Source: a virus
Reading direction: 5' to 3' (one strand)
DNA: 32,215 bases
Virus record (IMG/VR): IMGVR_UViG_3300031027_000035
Location: 1-32,215 of that record
A program made the translations under genes and the position numbers. How positions within the stretch are numbered: the stretch's first letter is position 1; each line of letters opens with the position of its first letter. The notes beneath the pieces were generated by a model. The model was not told the DNA's origin and did no database searches. It saw only the letters and a list, made by a program, of their open reading frames with translations. Shown piece by piece: positions 8,565 to 27,577 of this stretch.

Positions 8565-9383
8565 ATGCCAGTAGTAAAGAAGACAGCAGCCAAAGGTAAG
8601 AAGACAACGTCCACGGCGATAATTCCTTGGACGGAAAAATTTGCGAAGTACGCCAAAGAAACAAAGGAACAGACCAAGAACATCGGAGTCGGCGGCGTCA
8701 GTATTAAGTTCGGCCGTGGACGCATCTCTATCGGCGACGTCGAAGTCAAGGGCGGCAAGCTGGAGTGCGTCATTGTCGGCAGCTGCGCGCTCAATCGCTG
8801 GAACGAGCAGCCGTTTGATGCGTCCAATCCGCTGCCGCCGGATTGCTACGCGTTCTCTGTCATCTCGGACGACCCAGAGATGGCTCCTCACCCGTCGGCA
8901 CCTGACAAGCAAGCTGTGAAGTGCGCCGATTGTGAAAAGAACCAGTTCGGTACGGCGCGCGTTGGCAAGGGCAAGGCATGCGGCAATACTATTCGTCTCG
9001 GCCTGCTGACCGGCAATGACGCCACCGAGGACGCTGACAGCGTCGCCGCTGCGGAGATGGCCAATGCCGGTGTCAGCCCTACCAACCTGAACCATTACAA
9101 GAAGTACACCGACCTGTTGGAAGAGGAGTATGGTCGTCCGCCGTGGGCCGTGGTGACGGAGATTGCCAGTTACGATGATCCGAAGACACAGATTCGTCTG
9201 GAGTTCAAGATGGTGTCTCTGATTGACGACGACGACGTTCTCCAGGCTCTTGAGAAGCGTGTGCTCAAGGTGCAGGAGCAACTTCAGAAGCCGTTCTCCG
9301 TGGCCGATAAGACCGCGAAGAAGGCTCCGGCTGCGTCGAAGTCCAATTCCAAGTTCGCCGGCAAGAAGACTACACGGCGGTAG
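8565..9383 (+). CDS. Zinc-site phage protein, candidate ssDNA-binding protein
   Basis: A 272-residue protein with Lys-rich ends (MPVVKKTAAKGKK... and KKAPAASKSNSKFAGKK). Its central motif, CADCEKNQFGTARVGKGKAC followed by NTIRL, is a conserved Cys pattern found in phage proteins encoded beside DNA polymerases, here preceded by PFDASNPLPPDCY. Proteins of this type are sometimes annotated as ssDNA binding. The basic tails, the zinc site and the position before dCTP deaminase and polymerase fit that, but it is not shown. AAGGAG precedes the ATG. Confidence 0.65.
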   Translation: MPVVKKTAAKGKKTTSTAIIPWTEKFAKYAKETKEQTKNIGVGGVSIKFGRGRISIGDVEVKGGKLECVIVGSCALNRWNEQPFDASNPLPPDCYAFSVISDDPEMAPHPSAPDKQAVKCADCEKNQFGTARVGKGKACGNTIRLGLLTGNDATEDADSVAAAEMANAGVSPTNLNHYKKYTDLLEEEYGRPPWAVVTEIASYDDPKTQIRLEFKMVSLIDDDDVLQALEKRVLKVQEQLQKPFSVADKTAKKAPAASKSNSKFAGKKTTRR

Positions 9384-9448
9384 AATTCTAAGTCGTACTT
9401 GGTCGGTAGCCCTCACTGCTGGCCAAGTACGGCGAAGAAAGGAGTACT

Positions 9449-9553
9449 ATGAAACTGATCTTACTGATCCCGCGCATCTTCCTCATCATTTGTTTGATTC
9501 CTTTTGCGTTGGTTTTTGGCCCTGCACTATTTACGAAGCGGAGATTGTTTTGA
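9449..9553 (+). CDS. Small hydrophobic protein, 34 aa
   Basis: AAAGGAG lies 6 bases before the ATG. Nearly the whole product is hydrophobic (LILLIPRIFLIICLIPFALVFG) and it ends with KRRLF, consistent with a single membrane span with a cytoplasmic basic tail. Its TGA overlaps the TTG start of the dCTP deaminase, suggesting coupled translation. Function unknown. Confidence 0.6.
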   Translation: MKLILLIPRIFLIICLIPFALVFGPALFTKRRLF

Positions 9554-9981
9554 TTCTATCGCGGCAAGATCTTATGAAGTACGTAGAGCGGGGTGCGCTA
9601 CGGTTCGAGCCAGCATTGGCTGACGATCAGTTTCAGCAAAACGGCATTGACATGATTGTGAGTCAGGTGGAGAGCGACTTGTTGGCCGCAGGTGGATTCA
9701 CGTTAGGTCGTACGCGCGAGATTATAACCATGCCTGACGACCTTATGGCGTTCGTGCAAATACGGTCCACTTGGGCGCGTATGGGCTTCATCATGCCACC
9801 GACTGTGATAGACGCTGGCTTCCAGGGCAGTATCACCCTGGAGATAGCCAAGTTCGGCGCGCCGGGTTACGTGCCTGTTGGACAGCGATTCGCCCACGTC
9901 ATCTTCGCGAAGCTTACCAGCGCCACCGAGCCTTATCGCGGCAAGTACCAGGGCCAAGTGGCCATTACGGGGGCGCTGTAG
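9550..9981 (+). CDS. dcd: dCTP deaminase/dUTPase family protein
   Basis: This 143-residue protein begins MILSRQDLMKYVERG, the standard dCTP deaminase start. It has the substrate-binding IRSTWARMGF and the VIDAGFQGSITLEI strand with the catalytic Glu. The enzyme converts dCTP to dUTP (some members go on to dUMP). The start is a TTG overlapping the previous stop (TTGA) with GGAG 6 bases upstream. It is shorter than typical Dcd (about 170-190 aa), so part of the C-terminus is missing. Its product feeds the dUMP pool that the thymidylate-synthase-like protein at 25673 would use. Confidence 0.87.
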   Translation: MILSRQDLMKYVERGALRFEPALADDQFQQNGIDMIVSQVESDLLAAGGFTLGRTREIITMPDDLMAFVQIRSTWARMGFIMPPTVIDAGFQGSITLEIAKFGAPGYVPVGQRFAHVIFAKLTSATEPYRGKYQGQVAITGAL

Positions 9982-22215: not shown

Positions 22216-22270
22216 AGACGCCCAGAACATCGGGCGTCTTTGTATTTCCCCGGGTGTCTTAGACGCCTTT
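22216..22270 (+). terminator. Rho-independent terminator with alternative pairing
   Basis: AGACGCCC (22216-22223) pairs with GGGCGTCT (22232-22239), followed by a T-rich run (TTTGTATTT): a good intrinsic terminator. A second stem, GGTGTC/GACGCC (22253-22258, 22262-22267), is followed by TTT. The segment AGACGCC recurs at 22261-22267 and could pair instead with the 3' arm of the first stem, so the two structures are mutually exclusive, as in attenuators. It separates the accessory genes from the modification cluster. Confidence 0.65.
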
Positions 22271-22292: not shown

Positions 22293-23192
22293 CTGAAAAA
22301 CCTAACACTCATCATCCCCACGCACGGTCGTGTTAACAAGCAGATAACGCTCCAGGCGCTGCCGACTGCGCTCCAGGCCGAGGTCATCCTCGTGGCTTCG
22401 TTGCCTGACGAAGCCAAGGCGCTGAAGAAGCTGTACCCGGCTAACCAAGTGCTTACAGCCAAGGGCACTACATCCATCGCTACGAAGCGTCACTGGATTA
22501 TGAAGAACGTAGCCGGCAAGTTTCTATTTATGATGGACGACGACCTGGCGTTCTTCGAGCGCTGCCCGGCTAAGTGGCGCGTGTGGGAGGAGCATCGCAA
22601 GGCGTACGCCGTAGCTCCGGACGCACCGGCTGGAACCTCGCTGATGATGCGTCGCTATCCTAAGGACAAGGTCCTCTTGAAGCTATTCCAGGAGATGGAT
22701 TCCTACGCTGGTAAAGAGCACGACCTCGGTATGATCGGCATCGCGCATCGGCGTCACTCTGACAAGAAGAAAGCGGCGTGGGAGAAGAACGCAAGGATGA
22801 TGTATGCTTTCGGTGTCAACCGAGAGCTCTATCTCAAAGAGAAGATTCGCTTCGACGCCATAGGTCTGCGCGAGGACTTCCACGTGGTGTTGTCCATGTT
22901 GCGTAAAGGCCATGAGTGCCACAACTACGTCGAGCTACTCAACAACGAGTACGGCACATTCGGCGCGGCGGGAGGGTGCAGCGGCGAGCGCAGTATGGAG
23001 TACAGCGACGCCCAGTGCTTCGAGTTGGCCAAGCTACACCCCGGCTTCGTGAAGGTGGTGGACCGCGCGTACACCACGACGGCTGTGCGTAAGGAGGTCG
23101 TGGTAGCCTGGAAGAAGGCTTACCTCTCCTCTCTGGCTCAGCCCAAGGTTCCAAGCGTACGGAAGGCAGCAAAGAAAGCGGTGACGGCATGA
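22293..23192 (+). CDS. GT-A-type phage glycosyltransferase (TAGT-like candidate)
   Basis: About 300 residues. The start NLTLIIPTHGRVNKQITLQALP, the metal-binding FLFMMDDDLAFF (DxD) and the acceptor-side LREDFHVVLSMLRKGHE, then AAGGCSGERS and LHPGFVKVV, match a phage glycosyltransferase family related to TET-associated glycosyltransferases that modify 5-hydroxymethyl bases. GAGGAG at 22280-22285 points to a rare CTG start at 22293. A TTG at 22269 lies in the terminator T-run without a ribosome site. It heads the predicted base-modification cluster; donor and acceptor are unknown. Confidence 0.75.
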   Translation: MKNLTLIIPTHGRVNKQITLQALPTALQAEVILVASLPDEAKALKKLYPANQVLTAKGTTSIATKRHWIMKNVAGKFLFMMDDDLAFFERCPAKWRVWEEHRKAYAVAPDAPAGTSLMMRRYPKDKVLLKLFQEMDSYAGKEHDLGMIGIAHRRHSDKKKAAWEKNARMMYAFGVNRELYLKEKIRFDAIGLREDFHVVLSMLRKGHECHNYVELLNNEYGTFGAAGGCSGERSMEYSDAQCFELAKLHPGFVKVVDRAYTTTAVRKEVVVAWKKAYLSSLAQPKVPSVRKAAKKAVTA

Positions 23193-23356
23193 AGTGCGAA
23201 AATTGCAAGAAGAAGTGTGCGAATCGGTTCTGTAACCTTGGCTGCTTCAACCGGTGGGTGCGGCGTGGTAATCGCAAACTGGTGGAGGACGCGCACAAGA
23301 GCGGCACGGAGGATTACCGCGTCGTCGTACGGAAGATGATGGGAGGCACGGCGTGA
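23189..23356 (+). CDS. Small zinc-finger protein, 55 aa
   Basis: ATGA overlap with the glycosyltransferase gene. The first 20 residues carry six cysteines (MKCENCKKKCANRFCNLGCF), a compact treble-clef or MYM-like zinc site, followed by a basic helix. It may help DNA or partner binding in the modification cluster. It ends in an overlap with the kinase gene. Confidence 0.65.
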   Translation: MKCENCKKKCANRFCNLGCFNRWVRRGNRKLVEDAHKSGTEDYRVVVRKMMGGTA

Positions 23357-24090
23357 TCATTCACCACAAGATTCAGCGCAACAGCGGAGCAGCCCTAGAG
23401 CCGTGTATCTATAAGAGTGGCCATGGTGTGCCGACGCAAGGCGCTAAGATGCGCGCCTATCCGGACGTATTTGTGCCGGTGCTAGGTATAACGACTGGCG
23501 GCTACGTCATGCCGGTAATGGGCGAACCATCGCCGGTACTGGACCTGCCGTTGGCGCTGGCCCGGTTGGCTGCTTTATGGGACCTGCCGGTGGCGCATGT
23601 CTACGATTATGAGGGCCGCCGTCGCCACCACGTAGTCCAAGTAGAGCCGTTCACTCGCACAGAAGGCTTTCCGCCTATTATCCGGTCGGCGCTGACGACG
23701 TGGTACGAACGAATTGGTAGTACGCAAAGCAAAGGAGCACAGGTCGTACATGGTGATCCCACCCTGGAGAACTACGTACGCGACGGTTATTGGCTAGACC
23801 CTAGTACGCGTCCATTGCCACAAGAGGCCGAGCTTGACGGCGGCAAGCTGCTGCAGTCGTACTTCCACTACGGTCGCCCTTGCCTGGAGTCGGAACGTTA
23901 CATGATACGTAAGTTCTTGGTCGAGCAAAAATTGAACCTGGACCTCTGTATCTACTACATGCTGACGCACATCATTCGGCTGTATGGTGTGCAGCCGCAG
24001 GCGCGTGTATGGGCCATTGACGTCGTATCGGGCCTGCGTAATTTGGCGGAAGAACTTCGCACGGAAATGAGAGTGGATGCATGCAAGTAG
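23353..24090 (+). CDS. APH/choline-kinase-like phosphotransferase
   Basis: A 245-residue protein with the catalytic loop of the aminoglycoside phosphotransferase/choline kinase superfamily, VVHGDPTLENYV, the metal-binding Asp in YWLDPSTRPLP, and ELDGGKLLQSYFHYG. The N-lobe is short and its ATP-binding Lys is not obvious. It starts at GTG 23353 in an overlap and is followed by a nucleotidyltransferase. That pairing resembles LicA-LicC (kinase then cytidylyltransferase), suggesting that a small molecule is phosphorylated and activated. The substrate could also be 5-hydroxymethyluracil. Confidence 0.7.
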   Translation: MIIHHKIQRNSGAALEPCIYKSGHGVPTQGAKMRAYPDVFVPVLGITTGGYVMPVMGEPSPVLDLPLALARLAALWDLPVAHVYDYEGRRRHHVVQVEPFTRTEGFPPIIRSALTTWYERIGSTQSKGAQVVHGDPTLENYVRDGYWLDPSTRPLPQEAELDGGKLLQSYFHYGRPCLESERYMIRKFLVEQKLNLDLCIYYMLTHIIRLYGVQPQARVWAIDVVSGLRNLAEELRTEMRVDACK

Positions 24091-24800
24091 TTATTCTGGC
24101 GGCAGGACGCGGTGAACGATTTGTCAGTAACGGGGTAATGACGCCTAAACCGCTGCTCCCAGCGCGCGGTCGCACGATGATACAGCATGCGCTGGTCCAG
24201 GCGTCTGAAATCATCAAGACGCCTGTCGTTGTGTGCTTGGTGGATTTGTACAGTGAGCTTCACAAGCAAACGCCGAAGAACATGCATCCGATCCGCGTGC
24301 CCATTCGGTTCGTGCAGAAGGGTGCGGCCATGTCTTTGTTGGCGGCGTCAGGTGTGATTCGCGATACCGATCCGGTGCTGGTCATGGACTGTGACACCAT
24401 CTTCAAGAGTGGTGTGCTTGCTAAGTTCTCTGAGTTTAGTGAGGCTTGCTTCAAGTCTGGCGTGCAGTCTTCTATGCTGTGCTTCCGTCCTAAGGATGAC
24501 AGCGAGCGCTACAGTTTCGTTATCATGAAGGATCACTTAGTGACGCAGGTGGTGGAGAAGCAGCGCATAAGCGGTATTGCTTCTTGCGGCGTTCATGCAT
24601 TCCAGTCGTGGGAGCTTGCCAAGCGCGCCATCTACGAGATGGTGATTCTCAGTACGATGACTAACGGTGAGTACTATCTGGCACCGTGCCACAACAATTT
24701 GCAGTTGACCACGGCCATGGTGATCGCAGCCGATGAATTCAACCACGTAGGCACACCGGCTGAACTGGAGGCGTATGAGCAAGCAGTTCCCAAGGCTTGA
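24081..24800 (+). CDS. GT-A-fold nucleotidyltransferase (sugar-1-P/phosphocholine type)
   Basis: A 239-residue enzyme with the nucleotide-binding signature MQVVILAAGRGERF, then PKPLLPARG, and the metal-binding VLVMDCDTIF (DxD). It resembles sugar-phosphate nucleotidylyltransferases and LicC-type cytidylyltransferases that join NTP and a phosphorylated substrate with release of PPi. It overlaps the kinase gene by 10 bases and the next gene by 26. In context it may make the activated donor used by the glycosyltransferase, or activate phosphorylated hmdU. The substrate cannot be read from sequence. Confidence 0.8.
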   Translation: MQVVILAAGRGERFVSNGVMTPKPLLPARGRTMIQHALVQASEIIKTPVVVCLVDLYSELHKQTPKNMHPIRVPIRFVQKGAAMSLLAASGVIRDTDPVLVMDCDTIFKSGVLAKFSEFSEACFKSGVQSSMLCFRPKDDSERYSFVIMKDHLVTQVVEKQRISGIASCGVHAFQSWELAKRAIYEMVILSTMTNGEYYLAPCHNNLQLTTAMVIAADEFNHVGTPAELEAYEQAVPKA

Positions 24801-25647
24801 AGAGTTCGTGTACTTCGTGAACGAGCGTTGGTCCATACATCAGAAGCGATTGGCTGGGAAGCCTGCTCCGTGGACGAAGGATCCTATCCTGTTGGAATAC
24901 CGCTTTACCAACGTACGTCGCGAAGACGACAGGGTCACTAAGTGTATACACGAAAACTGGTTACAGCCGCACGCGGAGGACTACGACACGGTAGTCTTCG
25001 CAATGGCGCTGGCACGGTTGGTGAACTTGCCGGCGAGCCTGGAAGCGCTCGGTTATCCATCAAAATGGAATCCGAAGCGGTTTGTGAAGCTGATGGAGGC
25101 GCGCAAGAAGGACGGCATGGCGACGTTCACAGGGGCATACATGATAAACGCCGTCGGTGCTACCAAAGGACAGTCCAAGGCGTCGTACTTGGCCGACCAG
25201 GTGCTTGGGCCGTTGTGGAACAGCCGTAAGCTGCTAGGTAACTTGGTGCGTACCGGGTGTGAGCTTAGTACGTTGCAAGAAGCGCTCATGTTACATCACG
25301 GCTTCGGAGGTGGGTTCATGAGTGCGCAGGTCGTGGCGGATATTAAGCACCTGCCTTCTATGAAGAAGGCTGAAGACTGGATGACGTTCGCAATGTCAGG
25401 GCCAGGAAGTCGTAGAGGGTTAAACTGGCTCGTGGGAAGAGAACCAACTGCGCGCTGGAACGAAGAGGAATGGCATGCTACGCTGCTGGATTTGATGAAG
25501 GTAGCTCAGCCAAAGTTGAAATGCCCAGTGTTGGATGCGCAGAATCTACAGAACTGTCTGTGTGAATTCAGCAAATACTGCAAGGTGAAGTACAACGGCG
25601 GCAGAGCGAAGCAGAAGTTCCGCGCCAGCGGCGAAGCTTATAATTAA
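24775..25647 (+). CDS. Alpha-glutamyl/putrescinyl thymine pyrophosphorylase-like (clade 3)
   Basis: A 290-residue protein matching the pattern of the aGPT-PPlase clade 3 family, related to HhH DNA glycosylases: LEEFVYFVNERWSIHQKR, DPILLEYRFTNVRREDDRVT, VFAMALARLVN, FTGAYMINAVG, FMSAQVVADIKHL, SGPGSRRGLN and the ending NLQNCLCEFSKYCKV. Comparative genomics and phage biochemistry link the wider family to replacing an activated (pyrophosphorylated) 5-hydroxymethyluracil leaving group in DNA with an amine. GGAGG is 4 bases before the ATG. Its presence is the main evidence for thymine hypermodification here. Confidence 0.8.
   Translation: MSKQFPRLEEFVYFVNERWSIHQKRLAGKPAPWTKDPILLEYRFTNVRREDDRVTKCIHENWLQPHAEDYDTVVFAMALARLVNLPASLEALGYPSKWNPKRFVKLMEARKKDGMATFTGAYMINAVGATKGQSKASYLADQVLGPLWNSRKLLGNLVRTGCELSTLQEALMLHHGFGGGFMSAQVVADIKHLPSMKKAEDWMTFAMSGPGSRRGLNWLVGREPTARWNEEEWHATLLDLMKVAQPKLKCPVLDAQNLQNCLCEFSKYCKVKYNGGRAKQKFRASGEAYN
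25639..25644 (+). promoter_or_regulatory. TATAAT box before the thymidylate-synthase-like gene
   Basis: A perfect -10 hexamer overlaps the last two sense codons of the preceding gene (TAT AAT TAA), 29 bases before ATG 25673. No clear hairpin or -35 box. It may give separate expression of the nucleotide-pool genes. Confidence 0.4.
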
Positions 25648-25672
25648 CCCATAGCAGCGAAAGGAAGTGAAG

Positions 25673-26764
25673 ATGTACAGTTACAAAGCTAGAGACGTAA
25701 ATGAGGCGCTTTCACTTGGACTACAGCATTTGTTACACAGTGGAATCAAAGAGGACTCCAGAGTAGGTCCAGTGCTAGTAGCGCCAGGGCCGGTGTGTAT
25801 CGAGTATACCGACCCAAGGCAGCGAGTGCTGTATTCACCAACGCGCGATGCGAACCACGTATTCCATGTGATGGAGGCGTTGTGGTTTTTCTCGGGGAGC
25901 AACGAACTGGAGTTTCCGGTTTTCTTTAATGCCTCATACTCGCAGTTTTCAGATGATGGCAAGACTATGTGGGACTCTTACGGATGGCGCTGGCGAGAAT
26001 TCTTCGGCTATGACCAGCTCGATGCCATAGTGGAGGAGCTCAAGTCGAATCCGGGAAGCAGGCGCTGCGTATTGGCGATGTGGAACGCTGATATTGCGCC
26101 AAGCGCCCCGCAATGGGAGGCGAAAAGTGGCGTACAGTACAGCGATGATCTTGGCGTTGCGTGCAACGGTGGTAAAGCCGTTCCGTGCAACACGCACGCT
26201 TACTTCGCCATACGAGCCGGCAAGCTGAACATGACCGTCATGAACCGCAGCAACGACAGTATGTGGGGCGCATTCGGCGCGAACGCGGTCCACTTCAGCT
26301 TCCTGTTGGAGTACATGGCGATGCGTATCGGTGTGCCGATGGGCAGTTACTATCAGTTCACGAACAATCTGCATACGTATACCGACAAGTTCAGTATTGA
26401 CAAGCTGAACGCCATTGAATACGAGTGCGTTACGCTCGATCAGTTGGAACCTCTTGGACCCTCTATCACAGAAGGATTCGACGACGACCTGAAGCTGTTC
26501 ATGCCGTGGGCGCTGAAGGTGATACGTGCCACCCCACCGCCGGCAACGTTCCCGTCAGACGTATTACCAGAAGCTACGCAGCTTGCAGCGAACGTCCCCG
26601 CCTGCAAGACGCCATTCTTCCATGCGGTAGCCATTCCGATGTTCCTGTTCTGGGTGTTCCGAAAGTGGAAGGATGAATACAGCAGCAACACTTGCCTCGA
26701 TGGCATTGACGCGCCGGACTGGAAGCGCGCGTGCTACGAGTGGAAAGAACGGAGGCGGAAGTGA
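25673..26764 (+). CDS. Thymidylate-synthase family protein, candidate dUMP hydroxymethylase
   Basis: A 363-residue enzyme with all main thymidylate synthase motifs: WDSYGWRWREF, SRRCVLAMWN (phosphate arginines), catalytic Cys in KAVPCNTHAYF (about residue 171), MNRSNDSMWGAFGAN and LHTYTDKF. The Asn in GAN aligns with the Asn that reads uracil (Asp in dCMP hydroxymethylases), so dUMP is the likely substrate. It would make dTMP or 5-hydroxymethyl-dUMP. The neighbouring pyrophosphorylase-like gene favours the latter; sequence alone cannot decide. ATG 25673 follows AAAGGAAG. The C-terminus is longer than in ThyA. Confidence 0.85.
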   Translation: MYSYKARDVNEALSLGLQHLLHSGIKEDSRVGPVLVAPGPVCIEYTDPRQRVLYSPTRDANHVFHVMEALWFFSGSNELEFPVFFNASYSQFSDDGKTMWDSYGWRWREFFGYDQLDAIVEELKSNPGSRRCVLAMWNADIAPSAPQWEAKSGVQYSDDLGVACNGGKAVPCNTHAYFAIRAGKLNMTVMNRSNDSMWGAFGANAVHFSFLLEYMAMRIGVPMGSYYQFTNNLHTYTDKFSIDKLNAIEYECVTLDQLEPLGPSITEGFDDDLKLFMPWALKVIRATPPPATFPSDVLPEATQLAANVPACKTPFFHAVAIPMFLFWVFRKWKDEYSSNTCLDGIDAPDWKRACYEWKERRRK

Positions 26765-27339
26765 AAGAACTCCTGCAATTCATTTACGAGGGCGGTAGTG
26801 TAATTCGCTACCACGCACGTCCAGGCTTACGCACAGACACCGATGCGTCACACTCGTTCGGCGTTGCTCTTTGGTGCAGTTTACTGGCCGGCAAAGATGC
26901 CGAGGGTCGTACGCAAGCCAGCGCCATGTTGCTTATGGCAGCGCTAACGCATGATCTGGCCGAGCAAGCAGCGTCAGACATCAGCGCTCCAGCCAAGCGC
27001 ATGATGGGCCTGTCTGACCTAGTCCATGACTGGGAGCAGAAGACGCTGCGTAAGTACGACCTGGATTATGAGCAATGGTTGGATCCGGAGGAGTTGCTCA
27101 TCCTTAAGCTGGCTGACTGCTTTGATGGTCTGCTGTATTGCTGCCGTGAGCTTGCCTTAGGTAACAAGAACGTCATGCTGATCTGGAAGCGATTCTGTTC
27201 ATACATCGAAACACTCACGGTAAATACGGAAGTACCCTTGGACATCGCGCTGCGCGCCTCTAACATGTACGAAGCTATAAAGGAGATCTATCGTGAAACC
27301 CGTAGTGAAGCAGGTCCGGAATTCAACGTCTTCGAGTAG
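26761..27339 (+). CDS. YfbR-like HD-domain 5'-deoxynucleotidase
   Basis: A 192-residue HD hydrolase with metal ligands in DASHSFGVAL (His), LTHDLAEQAASDISAPAK (HD pair) and LKLADCFDGL (Asp), the YfbR arrangement. YfbR enzymes remove phosphate from dNMPs. In a base-modifying phage, such an enzyme could remove dTMP so that the modified nucleotide is incorporated; that is inference. GTG 26761 forms a GTGA overlap with the previous stop and follows GGAGG. Confidence 0.83.
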   Translation: MKELLQFIYEGGSVIRYHARPGLRTDTDASHSFGVALWCSLLAGKDAEGRTQASAMLLMAALTHDLAEQAASDISAPAKRMMGLSDLVHDWEQKTLRKYDLDYEQWLDPEELLILKLADCFDGLLYCCRELALGNKNVMLIWKRFCSYIETLTVNTEVPLDIALRASNMYEAIKEIYRETRSEAGPEFNVFE

Positions 27340-27577
27340 CAAGGCTAACGATACGCAGGTAGGAGGTAGTCACTATCAAGAGGCGTCGGCGGTGTGTCCT
27401 CACTGTCATAAAATTATTCAGCACTGGGATCTGTATGCCAAGATGCCATACTTGGTTGGACAGGTGGCCAAGTACACATTACGCTTCCTCGGTAAGAACG
27501 GCCTGGAAGACCTGAAGAAAGCACAGCACTTCCTACAGAAGCTGATCGAAGTGTACTATCCGGATGAGAAGTCTTAA
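27293..27577 (+). CDS. DUF3310 (SaV-like) protein with inserted CxxC
   Basis: A 94-residue protein with the DUF3310 hallmarks VGGSHYQ, IQHWDLY, VGQVAKYTLRF and KNGLEDLKKAQHFL. This family is common in phages next to nucleotide genes and was once called a nucleotide kinase; its function is unproven. A CPHCHK stretch between the first two motifs, not typical of the family, may bind zinc. GTG 27293 with AAGGAG upstream overlaps the HD gene by 47 bases. It is the last + strand gene before the terminator. Confidence 0.85.
   Translation: MKPVVKQVRNSTSSSSKANDTQVGGSHYQEASAVCPHCHKIIQHWDLYAKMPYLVGQVAKYTLRFLGKNGLEDLKKAQHFLQKLIEVYYPDEKS

Follow-up and report, generated by a model that had tools for sequence, protein, structure and literature searches.

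What would a phage attach to its DNA with genes of thymine hypermodification, a small-molecule kinase and a nucleotidyltransferase (NTase)? This question is raised by a block of eight genes at positions 22293-27577 of the virus record IMGVR_UViG_3300031027_000035. The window analyzed here is this whole record of 32,215 bases, which is 99.997% identical to a portion of a 101,166-base contig (G001). A first-pass annotation had proposed a thymine-modification island in which the kinase and the NTase take the place of the P-loop kinase that acts on 5-hydroxymethyldeoxyuridine (hmdU). An island in which no canonical kinase was found is supported by our analysis, but the replacement of that kinase by the pair is not favored. 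Instead, the block is probably a cassette for glycosylation of DNA at thymine positions, for which the phage itself would make the nucleoside diphosphate (NDP)-sugar, and in which a protein of the HMUDK_hel family would aid the glycosyltransferase (GT). In the proposed mechanism, the thymidylate synthase (TS) homologue would yield hmdUMP for incorporation into phage DNA instead of T, the kinase would phosphorylate a sugar, and the NTase would convert the resulting sugar-1-phosphate into the NDP-sugar donor. HMUDK_hel would then present the DNA-borne hmdU base to the GT, rather than to a P-loop kinase, and the GT would transfer the sugar onto the 5-hydroxymethyl group within the DNA. Such thymine decoration may shield the phage against bacterial defenses. 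The block consists of eight adjoining open reading frames (ORFs) on one strand, in agreement with the first annotation:

22293..23192, +, TAGT-family GT-A glycosyltransferase (PF20691, phrog_842, DDD motif), with CTG at 22293 or TTG at 22269 as start codon
23189..23356, +, 55-amino acid Cys-rich ORF, a possible zinc finger
23353..24090, +, APH-like small-molecule kinase, proposed sugar kinase (motif, weak PF01636 match of an orthologue, predicted fold)
24081..24800, +, NTase of the NDP-sugar pyrophosphorylase type, proposed sugar-1-phosphate nucleotidyltransferase (PF12804, PF00483, PDB 4evw)
24775..25647, +, HMUDK_hel protein (PF18723), homologue of gp55 of phage M6, proposed hmdU-DNA binding or presenting subunit
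25667..26764, +, TS homologue, probable hmdUMP synthase (PF00303; Cys174 and N206 retained)
26731..27339, +, YfbR-like HD protein, probable deoxynucleotidase (PF12917, E 5.8e-9)
27293..27577, +, DUF3310 protein (PF11753, E 2.1e-7)

The GT matched PF20691 (TAGT) in a Pfam search with an E-value of 1e-14 (55.4 bits, with a curated cut-off of 27.5) and phrog_842, the beta-glucosyl-HMC-alpha-glucosyltransferases, with an E-value of 2.6e-43. Its start codon is ambiguous, and it was matched in 3 of 50,697 phage records. The DDD motif, an acidic motif of the metal-binding type, is invariant in all six aligned rows, in agreement with the DxD glycosyltransferase of the first annotation. In the TS homologue the catalytic Cys174 and N206, which we take to be the uracil-reading position, are retained in all 27 aligned rows, including that of the window, as the first annotation had noted for the Asn. 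This protein is a probable hmdUMP synthase, judged by its sequence, and its HD neighbor a probable deoxynucleotidase; the assignments as YfbR-like and DUF3310 proteins held. Elsewhere in the window, positions 9223-9981 contain a dCTP-deaminase-like ORF (phrog_1663), which could supply a dUMP pool for hmdUMP synthesis.

HMUDK_hel and the P-loop kinase

P-loop kinases of family PF18748 act on 5-hmdU in DNA, and PF18724 is the amine-installing family in the chemistry of phages M6, ViI and PaMx11. The product of 24775..25647 had been annotated as a clade 3 thymine pyrophosphorylase, a name that has to be replaced, since PF18723 (HMUDK_hel) is its sole domain match (E 1.9e-41). Relatives of this protein carry the annotation 'clade 1' pyrophosphorylase in some phages. 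In M6, the neighboring genes are gp51 (PF18724, ADDT), gp54 (PF18748, the P-loop 5-hmdU kinase), gp55 (PF18723), gp58 (TS) and gp59 (HD), and the window protein is the homologue of gp55 and belongs to the family of neither gp54 nor gp51. Counterparts of gp55, gp58 and gp59 are present in the window. When 12 proteins of M6 and 6 of phage Sonora were compared by phmmer with the G001 ORFs of at least 50 amino acids (E<=0.1), these three counterparts, a DNA polymerase and a primase were matched, and no counterpart was found of M6 gp49, gp51-54, gp56 and gp65 or of the Sonora kinase. PF18748 gave no match in nine cassette contigs, i.e. the window (G000), the longer contig G001 and seven others (G002-G004, G005-G007 and G011), in line with the first reading that no P-loop hmdU kinase is visible. 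Seven G001 ORFs contain a loose Walker-like motif, and by eye none of them resembles the M6 kinase. PF18724, the amino-acid:DNA transferase family, is present in M6 and Sonora, and gave no match in G001-G004. The M6/ViI route is thus like the cassette in its hmdUMP-synthase-like TS, HMUDK_hel and HD protein, with a similar gene order in M6, but the cassette differs in having a TAGT GT, an APH-like kinase and an NTase, and no PF18748 or PF18724 match.

The lack of PF18748 in the nine contigs would also suit a route in which HMUDK_hel directs the APH-like kinase to hmdU in DNA, the NTase converts the phosphorylated hmdU into a nucleotidyl intermediate, and another group displaces the nucleotidyl moiety. 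This was in essence the lead model of the first annotation, with an amine as the incoming group. It would fit with the partnership of HMUDK_hel and the 5-hmdU kinase in other phages, which in Bacillus phage SBSphiC are fused into one protein of 636 amino acids; HMUDK_hel is therefore a partner domain of the P-loop kinase. However, the lack of a PF18724 match in G001-G004 argues against this route, which moreover leaves the GT without a role, and together with the locus data described below makes it the least likely of the alternatives that we considered.

The structural model of HMUDK_hel (pLDDT 86.3) aligns with helix-hairpin-helix (HhH) DNA glycosylases, the 5-PmdU glycinyltransferase 8z2n and the queuine-salvage DUF2419 enzymes, with Z scores from 10.6 to ~9, and the best Foldseek E-value was 0.13. 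Two matches of the HMUDK_hel profile to solved structures (E 0.067 and 0.088) were judged to be chance. We tentatively suggest that HMUDK_hel might be an interchangeable presenter of hmdU, a DNA-glycosylase-like subunit that serves the P-loop kinase in M6-type phages and the TAGT GT here, while the phage makes the NDP form of a sugar for which the host itself may have no activation route; this is possible, and we hold it with less confidence than the glycosylation cassette itself.

Kinase and nucleotidyltransferase

The window NTase matched PF12804 (E 6.8e-14) and PF00483 (E 2.7e-10), both above cut-off, as expected for the GT-A nucleotidyltransferase that had been annotated. The best solved relative of a profile made from eight NTase sequences was the NDP-sugar pyrophosphorylase PDB 4evw (E 8.2e-28), and most of those ranked below it were GlmU or further sugar enzymes. 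Matches to the NCBIfam models of named sugar enzymes all stayed below the cut-offs of these models, and there were weak matches to the cytidylyltransferase IspD as well. The nearest kin of the NTase are therefore NDP-sugar pyrophosphorylases, which predicts a sugar-1-phosphate as its substrate. We also considered the second half of the NTase protein of cyanophage S-SM2 as kin of the kinase, but it gave no kinase match and is another NTase.

The kinase is more diverged. The window protein had no Pfam match at E<=1 and no NCBIfam match, its top PHROG match had an E-value of 0.051, and it was not matched in the 50,697 phage records. Its orthologue in locus L059 matched PF01636 with an E-value of 0.0046, which is under the cut-off. 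K21, H133-G134-D135, N140 and D149, forming an HGDxxxxN...D motif, are invariant in seven aligned members. The structural model has a pLDDT of 69.7, with values below 50 for residues 128-156, which hold the motif. In the fold comparison, maltokinase and glucosamine kinase came out on top (Z 10.3-9.9), tied with LicA and with the remainder close behind, and nearly all of the 50 matches listed are small-molecule kinases or phosphotransferases by title (Z 7.5-10.3). Foldseek gave no E-value below 0.19, and the kinase profile had no match among solved structures at E<=10; a kinase that by sequence is without a close solved relative is a further point for phosphorylation of hmdU itself. We propose that the protein is an APH-like small-molecule kinase, as annotated before, on the basis of the motif, the predicted fold and the weak match of its L059 orthologue, although no Pfam profile matched the window protein.

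The position of LicA, level with the sugar kinases, and the weak IspD matches of the NTase would also be compatible with a pair that makes a non-sugar activated alcohol, such as CDP-choline in LicA/LicC-like fashion, that would end up on hmdU, on its sugar or on the surface of the host. The DNA of phage SP-15, with its phosphodiester-linked glucuronolactone, is a precedent for such complex decoration of thymine. However, sugar enzymes of the GlmU, RmlA and MurU types are the stronger matches of the NTase, the cassette contains a GT of the nucleotide-sugar type and no family that points to a phospho-alcohol transferase, and the precedent offered by phage RB69 (see below) is a sugar. We therefore regard an activated alcohol as unlikely.

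Gene order, co-occurrence and trees

A scan with the NTase yielded 11 viral loci and a scan with the GT 36. Based on local profiles, the order GT - kinase - NTase - HMUDK_hel - TS - HD - DUF3310 is conserved in six lineages (the window type; L010/L058; L045/L056; L046; L048/L049/L057; and L059), and since these lineages are diverged, the cassette goes beyond chance. The Cys-rich ORF was found in window-type viruses only, among the lineages tested (L059 was outside that test), and is not part of the conserved order. A seventh lineage (L052/L064/L065) has the order HMUDK_hel - GT - P-loop kinase - GT - kinase - HAD-like ORF - NTase - methyltransferase - ... - TS. Here the HAD-like label (L052:7516-8007) is based on a motif seen by eye and has no Pfam match, and the P-loop kinase of L052/L064 scored 28 bits with PF18748 against a cut-off of 27, and 25.7 bits, just below it, in another search. 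We had considered that P-loop kinase and GT might strictly exclude each other, and abandoned this idea as both are present in L052/L064. The assembly of a P-loop kinase, HMUDK_hel, two TAGT-like GTs, a kinase, an NTase and a methyltransferase in this lineage (L052 3981-10895/L064) possibly reflects a doubly decorated thymine.

The GT match was at least 197 residues long in 28 of the 36 GT loci and at most 90 residues in the other 8, whereby duplicates of one virus were counted. Among the 28, a TS was found near the GT in 27, HMUDK_hel in 26, the kinase in 11, the NTase in the same 11, and a P-loop kinase in 2, with the reservation that the profiles were made in part from the same loci and that window-type GTs served as seeds of the scan. 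None of these five genes was nearby in the eight short-match loci. In 15 of the 28 long-match loci, the fetched stretch contained GT, HMUDK_hel and TS without kinase, NTase or P-loop kinase. The kinase was seen solely alongside NTase and GT, and NTase relatives without the kinase occur in L050, L051 and cyanophages. Around NTase relatives in cellular genomes, 43 loci gave no HMUDK_hel or GT match, one doubtful kinase match (L087, E 0.0054) and one TS match (L128). When whole records were searched, PF18748 was found in 1 of 16 GT-bearing records, and in 9 (7 above cut-off) of 16 other records that were picked mainly for HMUDK_hel, of which 15 contained HMUDK_hel and 5 TAGT above cut-off.

These counts speak against phosphorylation of hmdU by the APH-like kinase, since 15 of the 28 GT loci combine HMUDK_hel, GT and TS without it, and in L052/L064 the pair coexists with a P-loop kinase. 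The absence of kinase and NTase from 15 of the 26 GT loci with HMUDK_hel could also mean that the GT uses UDP-glucose of the host on hmdU DNA, the pair acting in an unrelated pathway such as synthesis of a surface glycan, and related NTases are indeed found in a cyanophage sugar-gene cluster. However, the kinase and the NTase are fixed between GT and HMUDK_hel in the six lineages, and the GTs of these lineages form one clade, so that we consider this explanation improbable, slightly more so than an activated alcohol.

Trees were made for HMUDK_hel (31 rows), GT and TS, and clades were tested once the first tree had been inspected. On the HMUDK_hel tree, the P-loop and GT partners need four changes, and the starred branches force at least three for the P-loop label; a single clade was rejected both for the nine P-loop rows (p-AU 9e-5) and for the six cassette rows (p-AU 2e-5). 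HMUDK_hel of L059 groups with the M6-like proteins and L061 (97/93), whereas its GT falls with the window-clade GTs (100/99), and the TS tree shows a weak separation of L059 and the window clade (p-AU 0.044). The simplest reading of these trees is that in L059 the kinase and the NTase arrived with the GT, as expected for genes that make its donor, and that it is the GT and not HMUDK_hel that groups with the window clade counts again against phosphorylation of hmdU by the pair. The two GTs of L064 lie outside the window-clade GTs, and this lineage neither supports nor clearly contradicts that kinase and NTase travel with the GT.

Comparison with known systems

The closest parallel to a sugar-activating pair is found in phage RB69, which has the NTase ORF053c, the kinase-like ORF052c (HGD...N...D), an arabinose-5-phosphate isomerase and, close by, a dCMP-hydroxymethylase-like gene. 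ORF052c matched the APH and fructosamine-kinase families only under the cut-off, and the HAD-like label of ORF051c is a motif seen by eye, with no Pfam match. In PMC12838424, RB69 is described with arabinosyl-hydroxymethylcytosine DNA, and ORF052_053c is presumed to take part in UDP-arabinose synthesis. RB69 and the Mosigvirus arabinosylation system are like the cassette in that a hydroxymethylase of the TS superfamily has an NTase and a kinase with this motif in its vicinity, but they target cytosine (as 5-hydroxymethylcytosine, hmC) and the cassette would target thymine positions, and RB69 has the isomerase. By analogy, the cassette is best read as a thymine-side counterpart of RB69 arabinosylation. 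With the kin of the NTase and this comparable pair, the alternative listed in the first annotation, in which the GT attaches an activated small molecule, becomes the best-supported reading.

The TAGT enzyme of T2/T6 (beta-glucosyl-HMC alpha-glucosyltransferase) belongs to the same family, PF20691, as the cassette GT, but acts on glucosylated hmC, whereas the cassette GT is grouped with HMUDK_hel and what looks like an hmdUMP synthase. A gene set with HMUDK_hel, one or more TAGT GTs, a TS and no PF18748 match is also present in Brevibacterium phage LuckyBarnes and in Microbacterium phage Nebulous, but no APH-like kinase or NTase is annotated alongside, and in Nebulous an AAA-ATPase adjoins the GT. 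Base J of trypanosomatids is a glycosylated 5-hmdU. No report of glycosylated hmdU in phages was found by title or abstract opening in the literature searched, which covered few subscription papers.

Several points weigh against a glycosylation cassette of this kind. In PMC13216743, PF20691, named TAGT, is described with already glucosylated hmC as its substrate in T2/T6, so that attachment of a first sugar to hmdU is an extrapolation. The structure of the kinase is modeled poorly around its catalytic loop, and for a helical protein the fold match of HMUDK_hel, at Z ~10, is only moderate. The matches of the cassette kinase and NTase profiles to RB69 ORF052c (15.9 bits) and ORF053c (16.9 bits) are weak, and the sugar route differs from that of RB69, because the SIS isomerase family PF01380, found in RB69, was not matched in any of the six records searched (G001, G004, G005, G007, G011 and G016), which are of the cassette or the L064 type. 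HMUDK_hel is not always required, since GT and TS occur without it in the whole record of ctUhy936 and in a 20-kb stretch of L062. In Microbacterium phages Lucky3 and Nebulous (L027 6433-7020; L035 6738-7328), a P-loop-like 'AAA-ATPase' is present with HMUDK_hel and no PF18748 match, and because of this nearby ATPase a diverged kinase is possible there. Finally, the argument that the donor genes follow the GT is drawn from L059 only, as the L064 GTs lie outside the window clade; the trees covered HMUDK_hel, GT and TS, and the clade tests were post hoc.

The module of GT, HMUDK_hel and TS predicts glycosylated hmdU DNA in uncultured phages and in the isolated phages LuckyBarnes and Nebulous. 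It also suggests that HMUDK_hel, the helical part of the 5-hmdU kinase, could be a reusable DNA-presenting subunit, and the cassette offers candidate enzymes to label hmdU in DNA.

With respect to the contig, the termini of G001 have two stretches in common, of 512 and 633 bases (92.8% and 94.6% identity), which fits with a closed genome of ~99.8 kb; because the terminal copies are not identical, its completeness is unproven. An ORF of 818 amino acids at G001 96370-98826 (L019:16370-18826) encodes a portal protein (PF06381) that ends in an inorganic pyrophosphatase domain (PF18823) at its C-terminus. Possible homing-endonuclease ORFs, with NUMOD3 or GIY-YIG matches below cut-off, are located at G001 86428-87156 and 92136-92996, and at L010 7806-8474, the latter within the L010 cassette.

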